Source: Pseudomonadota bacterium (lineage in GTDB: Bacteria; Pseudomonadota; Alphaproteobacteria; Rhizobiales; MH13). From it: a stretch of DNA of 64,000 nt. The notes beneath the pieces are model-generated. The model was not told the origin of the DNA and did not search any database. It worked only from the letters and a program-made list of their open reading frames with translations. This document shows, in pieces, positions 46,198 to 51,047 of this stretch. How positions within the stretch are numbered: the stretch's first letter is position 1; the number at the start of each line of letters is the position of its first letter. The stretch spans positions 1-64,000 of the forward strand of contig JBCCPK010000002.1 in NCBI GenBank assembly GCA_039024915.1, in the 5' to 3' direction. The position numbers and the translations under genes were made by a program.

Positions 46198-46442
46198 CGG
46201 TTGTTCCGTTAGGAACAGAGCAAGCAAGAGTGCGGTCGGGCCGCAGGACCGGAGCGGGTAAGATGCCGGTTGTTCCGTCAGGAACAAAGCAAGCGAGAGT
46301 GCGGTCGGGCCGTAGGACCGGAGCAAGCGAGAGTACGGTCGGGCCGCAGGACCGGAGCGGGCAAAAGTACCGCTTGTTCCGTCAGGAACAGAGCAGGCAA
46401 AAGCGCCGGTCGGGCCGCAGGTCCGGAGCGGGTGAGAGTGGC
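46198..46442 (+). repeat. Hairpin tandem repeat array 1 (7 units of 34-36 bp)
   Basis: Seven units start with CGGT or CGCT at 46198, 46233, 46267, 46302, 46336, 46371 and 46407. Each has a stem-loop followed by AGC-rich spacer (for example AGAGCAAGCAAGAGTG). Two stem types are mixed: TGTTCC/GGAACA in units 1, 3 and 6, and GGGCC-GNA-GGACC in units 2, 4, 5 and 7, where the last has GGTCC. The spacer and the invariant CCGNNAGG or CCGNAGG core match the arrays at 47155 and 50458. The array lies directly in the uvrB 3' region. Confidence 0.85.
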
Positions 46443-47146: not shown

Positions 47147-47154
47147 TTAACAGC

Positions 47155-47276
47155 GGTTGGGCCGAAGGCCCAGAGCGAGCAAGGATGCCGGTTGGGCCGA
47201 AGGCCCAGAGCGAGCAAGGATGCCGGTTGGGCCGGAGGCCCAGAGCGAAAAAGATGGAACAGAGCAATCAGGGATG
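47155..47276 (+). repeat. Hairpin tandem repeat array 2 (three 35-bp units plus a partial)
   Basis: Units start with GGTTGGGCC at 47155, 47190 and 47225. The stem is GGGCC-GAA-GGCCC (GGA loop in the third), followed by CAGAGCGAGCAAGGATGCC. A partial fourth unit (ACAGAGCAATCAGGGATG) follows without the stem. Unit length and spacer match array 3 on the opposite strand, apart from 2 bases and a compensated G-C for T-A stem pair. Confidence 0.85.
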
Positions 47277-47284
47277 AAGCGGCG

Positions 47285-47656
47285 CTAAAGCACCTGGTAC
47301 GAAACCCGGCAAGTGCCCGAAGAAATGCAGCCGATCTGCCGCGCAGCGCCGCGACTCAGATCGATGCCGCGACCGCGAATGAACGGCCCGCGATCATTAA
47401 TGCGCACCGTGACGGAGCGGTTGTTCGATAGATTGGTGACCCGAACGCGGGTGCCGAACGCCAGGGTCCGGTGCGCGGCGGTCAGCCCATCGGGGTTGAA
47501 GCGCTCGCCATTGGCGGTGGTCGAGCAGCATTGGTACCAGCTCGCGGTGGTGACGGTGCCGTCGGCACTATTGGTGGTGTGGTGGGACAGAACGGGCAAT
47601 GACGCGCACGCCGAGACGAACAGGCCGAGGGACACGGCTGTGAGAACCTTCTGCAT
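47285..47656 (-). CDS. RlpA-like double-psi beta-barrel lipoprotein
   Basis: ATG 47656 follows AAGGAA. The 123-residue product has a lipoprotein signal ([15 protein letters not shown]) and an RlpA-type barrel: [60 protein letters not shown] and [12 protein letters not shown]. The catalytic-type His and Asp of RlpA are present. RlpA cleaves or binds denuded peptidoglycan at the septum, but this short form lacks a SPOR domain, so a division-site role is uncertain. Confidence 0.82.
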
Positions 47657-47888
47657 GGAATTTCCTTGGATTGGGGAGAATGCGATGCGGCGCGGTAGAA
47701 AGGCGGAATGCGGAGGAAGTGTGGCGCCCCAGCGCGGAAATCGGACTTGGCATGCTCGGCTAGTTTCGCAGTCTTGACTAACGCCCTTGTTGTGCAAATC
47801 CGCCGAGTAACACTCTAACGTATTGTTGTTCGATGTATTATCTGGGCAGAGTCGCGAGCGCTAAATTCGTTTAAGAACGGGAATTACC

Positions 47889-49247
47889 TTGGAACGCATC
47901 CGTGACCCGATACACGGCCTGATCAAATTTGAAAGCAAGATTGATGAACTTGCCTGGTCTCTGATCGAAACACCTGAGTTTCAGAGACTGCGACGAATTA
48001 AGCAACTTGGTTTTTCGGAATTAACCTTCCCGGGAGCTACGCATAATAGGTTTGCGCATTCCGTTGGTGTTTACGCGAATGCACGAAAGCTACTAAACGT
48101 TGCCGAGGGCTACCTAGGGAGCGGGGCAAGCCAATACGACCCCGATCGCGCGGATGACATTCTGATAGCCTCGCTGCTTCATGATATTGGCCACGGCCCC
48201 TTCAGCCACGCATTCGAAAGAGCCCGCGAGGTAGTTGCGGAACAACGCGACCATGGCCCGATAGAAAAGCATGAGAAGTATTCAGCCAAAATAATTTTAG
48301 ATCCAAATGGGCAGATACTCCCCCTTTTGGAAGATCATCGAGCTGGAATGGCCACCAAGGTAGCCGCTGTTATTAGCTCTGATGAACCAAGAGACATATA
48401 TGATGCAGTTATCTCAAGCTCTTTCGATGCAGATCGTTTAGACTATTTAGTCCGTGACAGATACATGACGGGCACCGGTACGGGTGCAATCGATGTCGAC
48501 TGGTTGATGGACAATTTGGATGGCTTTCTTCTAACAACATCACAAGATGGCGATGAGGACACCTTAACTACGCCAACCTTCGTTTTCAAAACAAAAGGCC
48601 GGCAAGCTGCGGAAGATTTTCTACTGGCAAGATTTAGGCTATATACTGAGGTTTATCTTCATAAGACTACCAGAGGATTTGAAGTACTGCTGACTCGACT
48701 TATCGAGTTAATTGGCAGCGATGATATAGATTCGAGCAAGTTAAATCTGCCAATTGATGACCCGCTTCTGCGCTTTATGCGCGGAGACATCTCGCTCTCC
48801 CGATACCTGCACCTCGACGACTTCGTAGTTTGGAATGCGATTAGGCTCATAGCCGAAGGGGTTCACGCTGAAGCTTCAACGCTTGCGAAACGGCTGCTAA
48901 ACCGAGATCATTTGTATGTTCTTGATTTGTTCTCTGAATTCGGACATAATGATGAAGTGCTTCTGAATGTGGAATACAAGCTTCGTAATCACGCAGGCGC
49001 GGAGCTTGGAAGGAGCGTTTTTGTCGACGATCCCCCAATAAACCTTTACTCGTCAATGCAAGGCGAATCTGAAAAGGTGCATAAAATTGTTCGGGTACTC
49101 AACGGGTCTGGCGAAGCCAAAGAGATTACAGATTTTCCCGAGACAATAATTAGCAAAAAATTAAGGAAAAAAAGACGTTTGGTCCGCTTCTATTATCCCA
49201 CAAGAGAGATGCGCGACGAGGCAGCAAAGCTTTTAAGGGGACGATGA
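47889..49247 (+). CDS. SAMHD1/YwfO-like HD-domain phosphohydrolase
   Basis: The frame opens at TTG 47889 (MERIRDPIHGLIKFESKIDE), the normal beginning of the YwfO/SAMHD1-like family, and encodes 452 residues. Metal-binding residues are visible: H57 in THNRFAHSVGV, H98-D99 in LLHDIGHGPFSH, and the Asp of SSFDADRLDYLVRD. The C-terminal half is specific to the family. Members are dNTP triphosphohydrolases, often allosterically stimulated by dGTP. Codons such as ATA, TTA and AGA are far more frequent than in neighbouring genes, suggesting recent transfer. A YwgA-like gene follows with no spacer. Control of dNTP pools or anti-phage action is inference. Confidence 0.85.
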   Translation: MERIRDPIHGLIKFESKIDELAWSLIETPEFQRLRRIKQLGFSELTFPGATHNRFAHSVGVYANARKLLNVAEGYLGSGASQYDPDRADDILIASLLHDIGHGPFSHAFERAREVVAEQRDHGPIEKHEKYSAKIILDPNGQILPLLEDHRAGMATKVAAVISSDEPRDIYDAVISSSFDADRLDYLVRDRYMTGTGTGAIDVDWLMDNLDGFLLTTSQDGDEDTLTTPTFVFKTKGRQAAEDFLLARFRLYTEVYLHKTTRGFEVLLTRLIELIGSDDIDSSKLNLPIDDPLLRFMRGDISLSRYLHLDDFVVWNAIRLIAEGVHAEASTLAKRLLNRDHLYVLDLFSEFGHNDEVLLNVEYKLRNHAGAELGRSVFVDDPPINLYSSMQGESEKVHKIVRVLNGSGEAKEITDFPETIISKKLRKKRRLVRFYYPTREMRDEAAKLLRGR

Positions 49248-49754
49248 ATGGACAATCAAATCATAGCGACCGTTTTAGCCGCGACTGAAAGAAAGAGGAT
49301 TGTCGGTCGTATCCGTTTCCAAAAAGTATTTTATCTACTTGAACAGCTTGGATTAGATTCTGGCCTTAAGTTTTCTTATCATCACTACGGCCCTTATTCA
49401 GAGGAACTCTCTAAATCTGTTCAGTCCGCTTGCGTTGTTGATAAAATTTTGAAGGAGCAAGTCGACTATACCGTATATGGCAATCCTTTCAGTACCTATA
49501 TCCTGGAAAACGGTACCGAGCAGACTATCACAGCTAAAATTCCGCCTGAAAAGATGGCCAGAAGCCTTGCTGAGATGTTGAAGCTTTCCTCTGTCCAGAT
49601 TGAGTTAGCGGCAACCATCCATTGGATCGCCACCAAGGAGAATTTCCAGGACTGGCGTTCTGAGCTGGTTGCTAGAAAAGCAGGTAAGGCTACAGATGCG
49701 AATGTTAGTCGTGCGCTCTGCTTGCTGGATAAACTCGGTTTGTCTGTCAGTTGA
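49248..49754 (+). CDS. YwgA-like protein (partner of the HD phosphohydrolase)
   Basis: The 168-residue protein starts immediately after the HD stop codon (TGA then ATG), so the two are co-translated. The N-terminal half (KRIVGRIRFQKVFYLLEQLG, then FSYHHYGPYSEELSKSVQSA) closely resembles Bacillus YwgA, whose gene sits beside ywfO in B. subtilis. The FQK...YGPYS pattern also recalls the SocA-like Panacea domain of toxin-antitoxin proteins. The rest is helical and not diagnostic. It shares the low GC and codon use of the HD gene. An antitoxin, adaptor or sensor role for the HD enzyme is inferred from pairing only. Confidence 0.7.
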   Translation: MDNQIIATVLAATERKRIVGRIRFQKVFYLLEQLGLDSGLKFSYHHYGPYSEELSKSVQSACVVDKILKEQVDYTVYGNPFSTYILENGTEQTITAKIPPEKMARSLAEMLKLSSVQIELAATIHWIATKENFQDWRSELVARKAGKATDANVSRALCLLDKLGLSVS

Positions 49755-50081
49755 CTAATAACACGGCGGATAGACCTCCCTCTTATCCCCGCCCGATTTC
49801 CCTCCCCTATCCTCCTCCCACTTCCGTTCACGTGGACAGCGCGTGTGCACCGTGAACCATGCGTGGGGCGGGAGGGCAGGTTTTGTTGGAAGCCGCATCA
49901 TTCAATGGTGGGCGATCCGCGCTCCGTTCCGTCTTCGCCTTTCGCCTTCGGGCGCGTGGCGCATCGGAATGACCGCTTGGATCGCTGTTTCATGAATGGT
50001 GACTCACACGGTTCCCAACAAAGGCCGAACCCCGATAGCGCGAGCTTGAGGGGTGCGCTGGTCGAGCATTCTTTGTAGTCA

Positions 50082-50134
50082 ATCAGGATCGCACGTTGAG
50101 CATGCGACCAGCATGCGAAGCGCAAGATCCTGAT
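50082..50134. repeat. 53-base symmetrical interrupted palindrome
   Basis: ATCAGGATC, nine unpaired bases, GCATGC, five bases, GCATGC, nine unpaired bases, GATCCTGAT. The arms and internal loops are exactly symmetrical in length (9-9-6-5-6-9-9). It could form a long hairpin with an internal loop, or be a binding site. Confidence 0.6.
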
Positions 50135-50323
50135 CAACAAAAATGCCGATCTTCATTTCTGCCTTCGGGCGGTGGGCCTCCCAGTCGCTGGGTCGACGGC
50201 AACTGTGGATTAAAAAGTGGATGGCGGGGACGCGAACCATCTTCGTCACATGACCCACCTCGATCGCGGATAGCGCATCTCATCGGTGACAGATTCACCG
50301 GCGGGCAACGGTTGGCCCCTGCG

Positions 50324-50384
50324 GGCGGGGCGCATCAAGCGCCACCCAATAAACAAAGCGGACCGGCGTTTCATGCGCCCCGCC
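50324..50384. repeat. 12-base perfect inverted repeat
   Basis: GGCGGGGCGCAT at 50324-50335 and ATGCGCCCCGCC at 50373-50384 are exact complements separated by 37 bases. There is no T run on either side, so it is not a typical terminator. Confidence 0.6.
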
Positions 50385-50457
50385 TCGTTCACGTCTCTTG
50401 CTCAAAGGCTTGCGCGTCATTCGCGCATGGCCGCGCTTGGCTATGGCTTTGATTAGG

Positions 50458-50938
50458 GCATCCTTGTTTGCTCTGCGCCTCCGGCACAAATGCAGCATCT
50501 CTGTTTGCTCTGTCCCTCCGGCACAACCGCGGCATCCTTGTTCGCTCTGTGCCTCCGGCACAACCGCTGCATCTCTGTTCGCTCTGTGCCTCCGGCACAA
50601 CCGCAGCATCCTTGTTTACTCTGTGCCTCCGGCACAACCGGGGCATCCCCGTTTGCTCTGTGCCTCCAGCACAACCGCAGCATCCTTGTTTGCTCTGTGC
50701 CTCCGGCACAACCGCGGCATCCTTGTTTCCTCTGTGCCTCCGGCACAACCGCGGCATCATTTTTTGCTCTGTGCCTCCGGCACAACCGCAGCATCCCTGT
50801 TTGCTCTATGCATCCGGCACAACCGCGGCATCCTTGTTTGCTCTATGCATCCGGCACAACCGCGGCATCCTTGTTTGCTCTGTGCCTTCGGCACAACCGC
50901 GGCATCCTTGTTTGCTCTGTGCCTTCGGCACAACCGCG
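50458..50938 (-). repeat. Hairpin tandem repeat array 3 (13 units of exactly 37 bp)
   Basis: Thirteen units, each beginning GCATC on the plus strand, start at 50458 and repeat every 37 bases. On the minus strand each reads GGTTGTGCCGGAGGCACAG, then AGCAAACAAGGATGC. The stem is GTGCC/GGCAC with a 3-base loop; TCC and TTC loops occur. Units 10 and 11 have ATGCATCC. Because 37 is not divisible by three and the unit lacks stops, several frames stay open across the whole array and give the same 37-residue repeat; I do not regard these as genes. Confidence 0.9.
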
Positions 50939-51047
50939 GTGCTTGACGTATGGGCATACGCCCGGCACGCTCCCAAACAGCCATTGGGGGCGCACGTTGA
51001 GCCAAAGCGAAGTGCGAACCCCGGCCAACAAACAAGGGGGAACCAGC

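Follow-up and report, generated by a model that had tools for sequence, protein, structure and literature searches.

The window, by which we mean the whole 64,000-nucleotide stretch of DNA analyzed here, carries two adjacent genes on the forward strand, encoding an HD-domain protein and a YwgA-like protein. The preliminary description of this DNA had reported the two genes as fused at TGA/ATG without a spacer, and we found the open reading frames to be exactly so: the ATG of the YwgA-like gene directly abuts the TGA of the HD gene. The HD protein begins from a TTG codon with MERIRDPIHGL, which is the conserved start of its family. The features of the locus are listed below.

47889 to 49247, + strand: HD-domain gene, putative dNTPase of the EF1143/SAMHD1 class, 452 amino acids, TTG start.
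49248 to 49754, + strand: YwgA-like gene, 168 amino acids, predicted stand-alone DarG C-terminal (DarT-binding) fold.
47982 to 47996, + strand: QRLRR motif, residues 32 to 36, the counterpart of SAMHD1 AL1 residues Q142/R145.
48057 to 48059, + strand: H57 codon, metal ligand, invariant in 52 relatives.
48180 to 48185, + strand: H98-D99 codons, the HD motif, with H102, H107, and E110 downstream.
48432 to 48434, + strand: D182 codon, fourth metal ligand, within FDADRLDY, invariant in 52 relatives.
49235 to 49241, + strand: AAGGGGA, Shine-Dalgarno-like, inside the 3' end of the HD gene, read from the sequence.
47727 to 51021, no strand: variable segment between conserved flanks, holding other cargo in congeners (blastn collinearity with L128 of genome G001 and L129 of genome G003).
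47285 to 47797: RlpA-like gene, conserved flank of the variable segment.
From 51022: conserved block on the other side of the variable segment.

The fused junction had been taken to mean that the two products are made in a fixed ratio. This does not follow; the arrangement indicates tight coupling only. The AAGGGGA lies 6 nt upstream of the second ATG, and thus the YwgA-like gene has a possible ribosome site of its own. Promoter and terminator scans of the pair gave scores no higher than those of shuffled sequences, and neighbor clustering revealed no conserved third gene upstream outside a DISARM-like subgroup of loci. Tandem arrays of kindred 34- to 37-bp GC-rich units occur on both sides of the pair, at positions 50457 to 50939, 46210 to 46429, and 47154 to 47248 of the window.

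To what class does the HD protein belong? Pfam HD and HD_assoc_2 both match it above the cut-off, and the PDB protein closest to it in sequence is E. faecalis EF1143 (2o6i/3irh/4lrl; 1.1e-47 to 2o6i). The top Foldseek match of its structural model is EF1143 with dGTP (4lrl; E 9e-21, TM(target) 0.75); further bacterial HD proteins and SAMHD1 from fungi and humans come next. Like SAMHD1, the dNTPase EF1143 acts as a tetramer, in which it differs from the hexameric HD dNTPases (PMC12042053). The metal ligands read earlier from the sequence (H57, H98-D99, and the DADRLDY aspartate, D182) are indeed kept, and together with H102, H107, and E110 they are invariant across 52 HD relatives. The allosteric site AL1 of SAMHD1 includes D137, Q142, and R145, and the role of this site has been described (PMC7045340, PMC12042053). 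We found that Q32, R33, and R35 are invariant across the same 52 relatives; Q32 and R35 correspond to Q142 and R145, and E27, the counterpart of D137, varies among Q, N, D, and E. On the predicted fold, the metal site, and the catalytic His and Glu residues, we assign the protein to the EF1143/SAMHD1 class. This class match and the invariant catalytic residues make it very probable that the protein hydrolyzes dNTPs.

The HD protein scores far below the cut-off of the dGTPase model TIGR01353 (27.6 versus 152 bits), and its match to the PADLOC dGTPase defence model is weak (24.7 bits over 92 residues). A separate dGTPase, of the Dgt type, is encoded elsewhere in the host genome, and therefore the HD-YwgA pair is not the housekeeping dGTPase of the host.

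The second protein had been assigned to YwgA by its FQK...YGPYS layout. It does carry RFQK...HHYGPYS, and it is homologous to the neighbor of the HD gene in Priestia. A suggested kinship of the YGPYS domain with Panacea antitoxins was not borne out, and the kin we found is the DarG C-terminal domain. A Pfam search at 0.1 assigned the protein to no family, DUF4065 included, and we rejected Panacea membership on this ground. The only strong NCBIfam or PADLOC match is DarG (NCBIfam, 1.7e-10, profile positions 174 to 310, the C-terminal half only; PADLOC, 5e-13). The YwgA family profile retrieved one PDB entry only, 7yk3 chain B (2.8e-5), which is the DarG domain in the DarT-DarG complex. Consistently with this, when the AlphaFold model of the protein (pLDDT 94.4) was searched with Foldseek, 7yk3 chains B and D were the sole matches under 0.001 (2.6e-5, probability 1.00). 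Profile and model together thus identify the YwgA-like protein as a predicted stand-alone domain of the DarG C-terminal type.

Foldseek also returned weak matches to the CtsR and PadR regulators (E 0.03 to 0.1, TM about 0.3), as might be expected if YwgA were a winged-helix-like DNA-binding protein that autoregulates its operon and not a regulator at the protein level. We consider this highly improbable, since these matches fall far below the DarG match and searches around the pair and its promoter found no direct or inverted repeats. A further search hit was A0A2H4RBN9 in BFVD, an uncharacterized protein of Sulfolobus ellipsoid virus 1, which matches the YwgA/DarG C-terminal fold (probability 1.00, TM 0.51) and is possibly a viral antitoxin mimic.

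In DarTG, the C-terminal domain of DarG mimics ssDNA and thereby occludes the active site of DarT (PMC11481870; for the occlusion, also Deep et al. 2023, as cited in PMC12170906). The YwgA-like protein has a net charge of +2 and its family a mean of -1.8. We rejected literal ssDNA mimicry by an acidic surface because this charge does not fit. Since the family is not acidic, the DarG trait that may be transferable is the binding and blocking of an effector and not necessarily ssDNA mimicry.

We then asked how closely the two genes are linked. An HD gene adjoins YwgA in 78 of the 83 YwgA loci from named genomes and viral contigs. Three of the remaining five lie at a contig start, one has a C-terminal HD remnant, and one is solo. 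Counted from the other side, YwgA adjoins 22 of the 24 HD matches in 397 genomes of the order; one of the two exceptions is at a contig edge and one is real (L171). YwgA relatives are thus not usually found without an HD gene; the opposite would have spoken against the pair as a unit. The HD and YwgA genes overlap at start and stop or lie nearly adjacent in most loci, and the pairing is kept in two loci with reversed gene order (L169 and L170). HD distances and YwgA distances are strongly correlated (mirror-tree r = 0.91, n = 66; maximum of 2000 permutations, 0.15), which demonstrates a shared history of the unit and not, by itself, contact between the proteins. The solo YwgA-like gene (L073:9977-10510) sits by a Vsr-like endonuclease and a type III-like methylase, with no HD gene within 10 kb. 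At another locus (L060:9383-10477), the N-terminal half of HD is joined in frame to the C-terminal part of YwgA in a chimera of 365 amino acids, probably an internal deletion product.

The low GC content and rare codons of the pair had been contrasted with those of its neighbors, and we measured both, taking as baselines the other open reading frames of the window and the flanks of homologous loci. The GC content is 0.470 for the HD gene and 0.446 for the YwgA-like gene, compared with 0.591 +/- 0.020 for the 49 other open reading frames of the window (z-scores of -6.1 and -7.3). GC3 is about 0.455 for the pair and 0.676 for the others, and the codons ATA, TTA, AGA, CTA, and AGG make up 8.8% of the HD gene and 5.3% of the YwgA-like gene versus 1.6% elsewhere in the window, that is, three to six times the window level. 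The flanks also exceed the pair in GC content in 60 of 61 loci, and the mean difference is 9.5 points. The composition is therefore strongly deviant, as the preliminary description had held.

The distribution of the pair points the same way. The HD gene is patchy, occurring in 22 of the 397 genomes of the order. Among three congeners, only G003 has such a pair, which is distant and lies at another place; the other two lack it. The pair is thus not a core feature of close relatives. Phylogenetically, the window HD protein clusters with one protein from Rhodospirillales and one from Desulfobacteraceae (SH-aLRT 98), and the HD protein of the congener falls in a different supported clade of the HD tree. 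The pair has thus been horizontally transferred in this lineage, and the claim of a mobile two-gene unit holds: its occurrence is patchy, its GC content lies below that of its flanks, and its phylogeny is scrambled.

The site itself carries different genes in related genomes. In G001, we found a low-GC pair of an HTH gene and an IrrE-type peptidase gene, CapH/CapP-like (L128:2034-2955), and in G003 a low-GC gene for an 820-amino-acid SIR2-STAND protein, Avs5-like (L129:14117-16579). Together with the window pair, this makes three related genomes in which the one site holds a different low-GC cargo each time, and two of the three cargoes are annotated as defence-type. The variable site is a small defence hotspot downstream of uvrB.

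Defence genes also recur next to the pair elsewhere. Matches at 1e-10 to PADLOC families numbered 208 for 132 pair-adjacent proteins and 5 for 132 control proteins; the families are redundant, the control set contains fewer residues in total, and its genomes overlap only in part with those of the pair-adjacent set, so this contrast is an enrichment and not a count of systems. We dismissed matches to "mad3" among the neighbors because control proteins match it too. In five loci (L048, L052, L055, L059, and L068) and partly in two more (L056 and L064), the genes in front of the pair encode a DISARM/Dpd-like helicase and an Eco57I-type methylase, and in this subgroup an HNH gene is often found behind it. 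The closeness to defence genes that had been asked about thus exists, in a repeated location among restriction/DISARM-type genes and in the low-GC cargo site.

Does the pair merely stabilize mobile DNA? A simple addiction (toxin-antitoxin) module that protects hardly or not at all against phages would agree with the two-gene size, the DarG-type partner, and the patchy spread, and three contigs of a viral collection (L117, L118, and L119) carry the pair, perhaps as prophage cargo. A search of 72,556 plasmid records with the window YwgA found no match, and the restriction/DISARM association is strong; both argue against addiction, which we regard as quite improbable.

The same pairing had been noted in Bacillus as ywfO-ywgA and read as a sign of mobility. 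We found that the pairing is homologous: in Priestia, an HD gene (31% identity) and a YwgA homologue (hhalign 98.7%) are adjacent in the same order. The argument for mobility did not stand, because the Priestia pair lies among housekeeping-looking genes. This location indicates an old pairing of HD and YwgA that is also found outside mobile DNA. In Listeria, the HD gene stands at that locus without YwgA, and these core-looking YwfO-type genes likely have a housekeeping role in both genera. One may then ask whether the window pair, too, is an ordinary enzyme of dNTP-pool housekeeping or stress with its regulator, and not defence; HD_assoc_2 proteins are present in 10 of 14 well-known control genomes, which would agree with this. 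The pair here, however, is patchy, GC-poor, exchanged, and near defence genes, and the host has its own Dgt-type enzyme. We judge the housekeeping explanation improbable.

HD relatives without YwgA occur on Rhizobium, Roseibium, and Sinorhizobium plasmids (L145, L146, L147, and L150). There the gene belongs to a four-gene operon with genes for a radical SAM protein, a 3'-5' exonuclease, and a small AAA ATPase, neighbors that we also recorded for HD relatives on Rhizobium/Labrenzia plasmids. Shedu, ABC-three-component, and VapC genes are among the neighbors of the operon, which looks like another, separate defence system.

Both animals (through SAMHD1) and bacteria are known to fight viruses by depleting dNTPs. 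We propose, with a probability of roughly 55%, that HD-YwgA is a mobile antiphage (or toxin-antitoxin-like) module in which a dNTPase is restrained by a partner of the DarG C-terminal type. The YwgA-like protein would bind its cognate HD enzyme and keep it inactive until infection, much as the DarG C-terminal domain occludes DarT. Once released, the HD enzyme would act as the effector, stripping dNTPs and halting phage and host DNA replication. The trigger would probably be loss or titration of YwgA or a shift in the nucleotide pool sensed at the HD allosteric site. A defence- or toxin-antitoxin-type function is probable, and direct inhibition of the HD enzyme by YwgA is somewhat favored. We modeled the two proteins as a fused chain in AlphaFold, with the natural TGA read as Trp; the pTM of 0.80 proves no interface, and it is suggestive in that it appears to exceed the expectation for two unrelated domains of such size. 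The preliminary description had advanced the pair as a mobile, nucleotide-acting defence or toxin-antitoxin candidate. This candidate stood up on pairing, inheritance, and composition alike, the three grounds on which it could have fallen, and its nucleotide action and defence role are predictions.

The main rival to inhibition is that YwgA switches the dNTPase on, as a sensor, activator, or specificity subunit that recognizes a phage protein or DNA structure. The linkage of the genes is as tight as expected for an inhibitor, and a conserved cluster of R, K, Q, and E residues in the YwgA family could bind a ligand. HD genes without YwgA (L171 and the plasmids) and a YwgA gene without HD (L073) both exist, so that neither protein is strictly an antidote and strict antidote logic is not forced. 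In Clover, CloA shows no dNTPase activity by itself and requires a cue linked to the phage (PMC12265719). Against activation, the sole structural relative of YwgA with a known function is the inhibitory, toxin-binding domain of DarG, and we think an activating role unlikely.

With inhibition as the preferred reading, a wider proposal can be made tentatively, at a little under even odds. A DarG antitoxin fold would restrain a bacterial SAMHD1-class dNTPase defence, so that one antitoxin fold would serve two unrelated effectors, one for DNA ADP-ribosylation and one for dNTP destruction; the unit would be derived from or shared with the little-studied Firmicutes YwfO-YwgA and would sometimes be placed in DISARM-like operons. 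The DarG C-terminal fold would then be reused against different effectors, and YwgA, which is without a Pfam family, would gain a testable role. A dNTP-depleting enzyme is dangerous to its own cell, and Clover keeps its enzyme quiet with a small nucleotide. HD-YwgA would be a second way, in which this task falls to a protein dedicated to the enzyme, and the fold of that protein is one that in DarG blocks a toxin by binding it directly. The literature that we searched mentions YwgA only incidentally (a Bacillus transcriptome and an unrelated context) and does not mention YwfO together with an HD domain. The pair looks like an undescribed nucleotide-depletion defence system.

Several known systems resemble the pair in part. 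With the EF1143/SAMHD1 class (E. faecalis EF1143 and the Bacillus YwfO type), the HD protein has in common the fold, the catalytic residues, and the AL1 Q and R; it differs in its 28 to 30% identity, its mobility, its pairing with YwgA, and the variable D137 counterpart of its family. The Bacillaceae ywfO-ywgA of Priestia is homologous in both proteins, adjacent and in the same order, and is housekeeping-looking there, whereas the pair here is mobile and defence-associated. DISARM/Dpd-like islands hold HD-YwgA at several loci, in or beside a DrmD/DpdE-like helicase, an Eco57I-type, DrmMI-like methylase, and an HNH nuclease; the window pair, in contrast, stands alone, and we know of no description of the pair as a DISARM component. 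Panacea (PanA, DUF4065) resembles the pair in its general principle, in which one antitoxin domain is combined with varying effectors, and the main text of its paper does not mention an HD domain, phosphohydrolase, or dNTP (PMC8832971). With DarTG, the overlap lies in the YwgA-like protein, which is the DarG C-terminal domain by profile and predicted fold, but the macrodomain is absent, no DarT adjoins, and the partner is a putative dNTPase and not a DNA ADP-ribosyltransferase. Clover combines the dGTPase CloA with the nucleotidyltransferase CloB and is a dNTPase defence with a dedicated regulator (PMC12265719). Clover and HD-YwgA would have in common an antiphage design of two genes, in which a dedicated regulator holds the toxicity of an HD dNTPase in bounds. 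We rejected membership in Clover because both halves are wrong: the HD protein is not of the Dgt/CloA class by TIGR01353 score, and its partner is no Pol-beta nucleotidyltransferase, having no Pfam match and a DarG fold. The HD enzyme is closer to SAMHD1 than are the known antiphage dGTPases.
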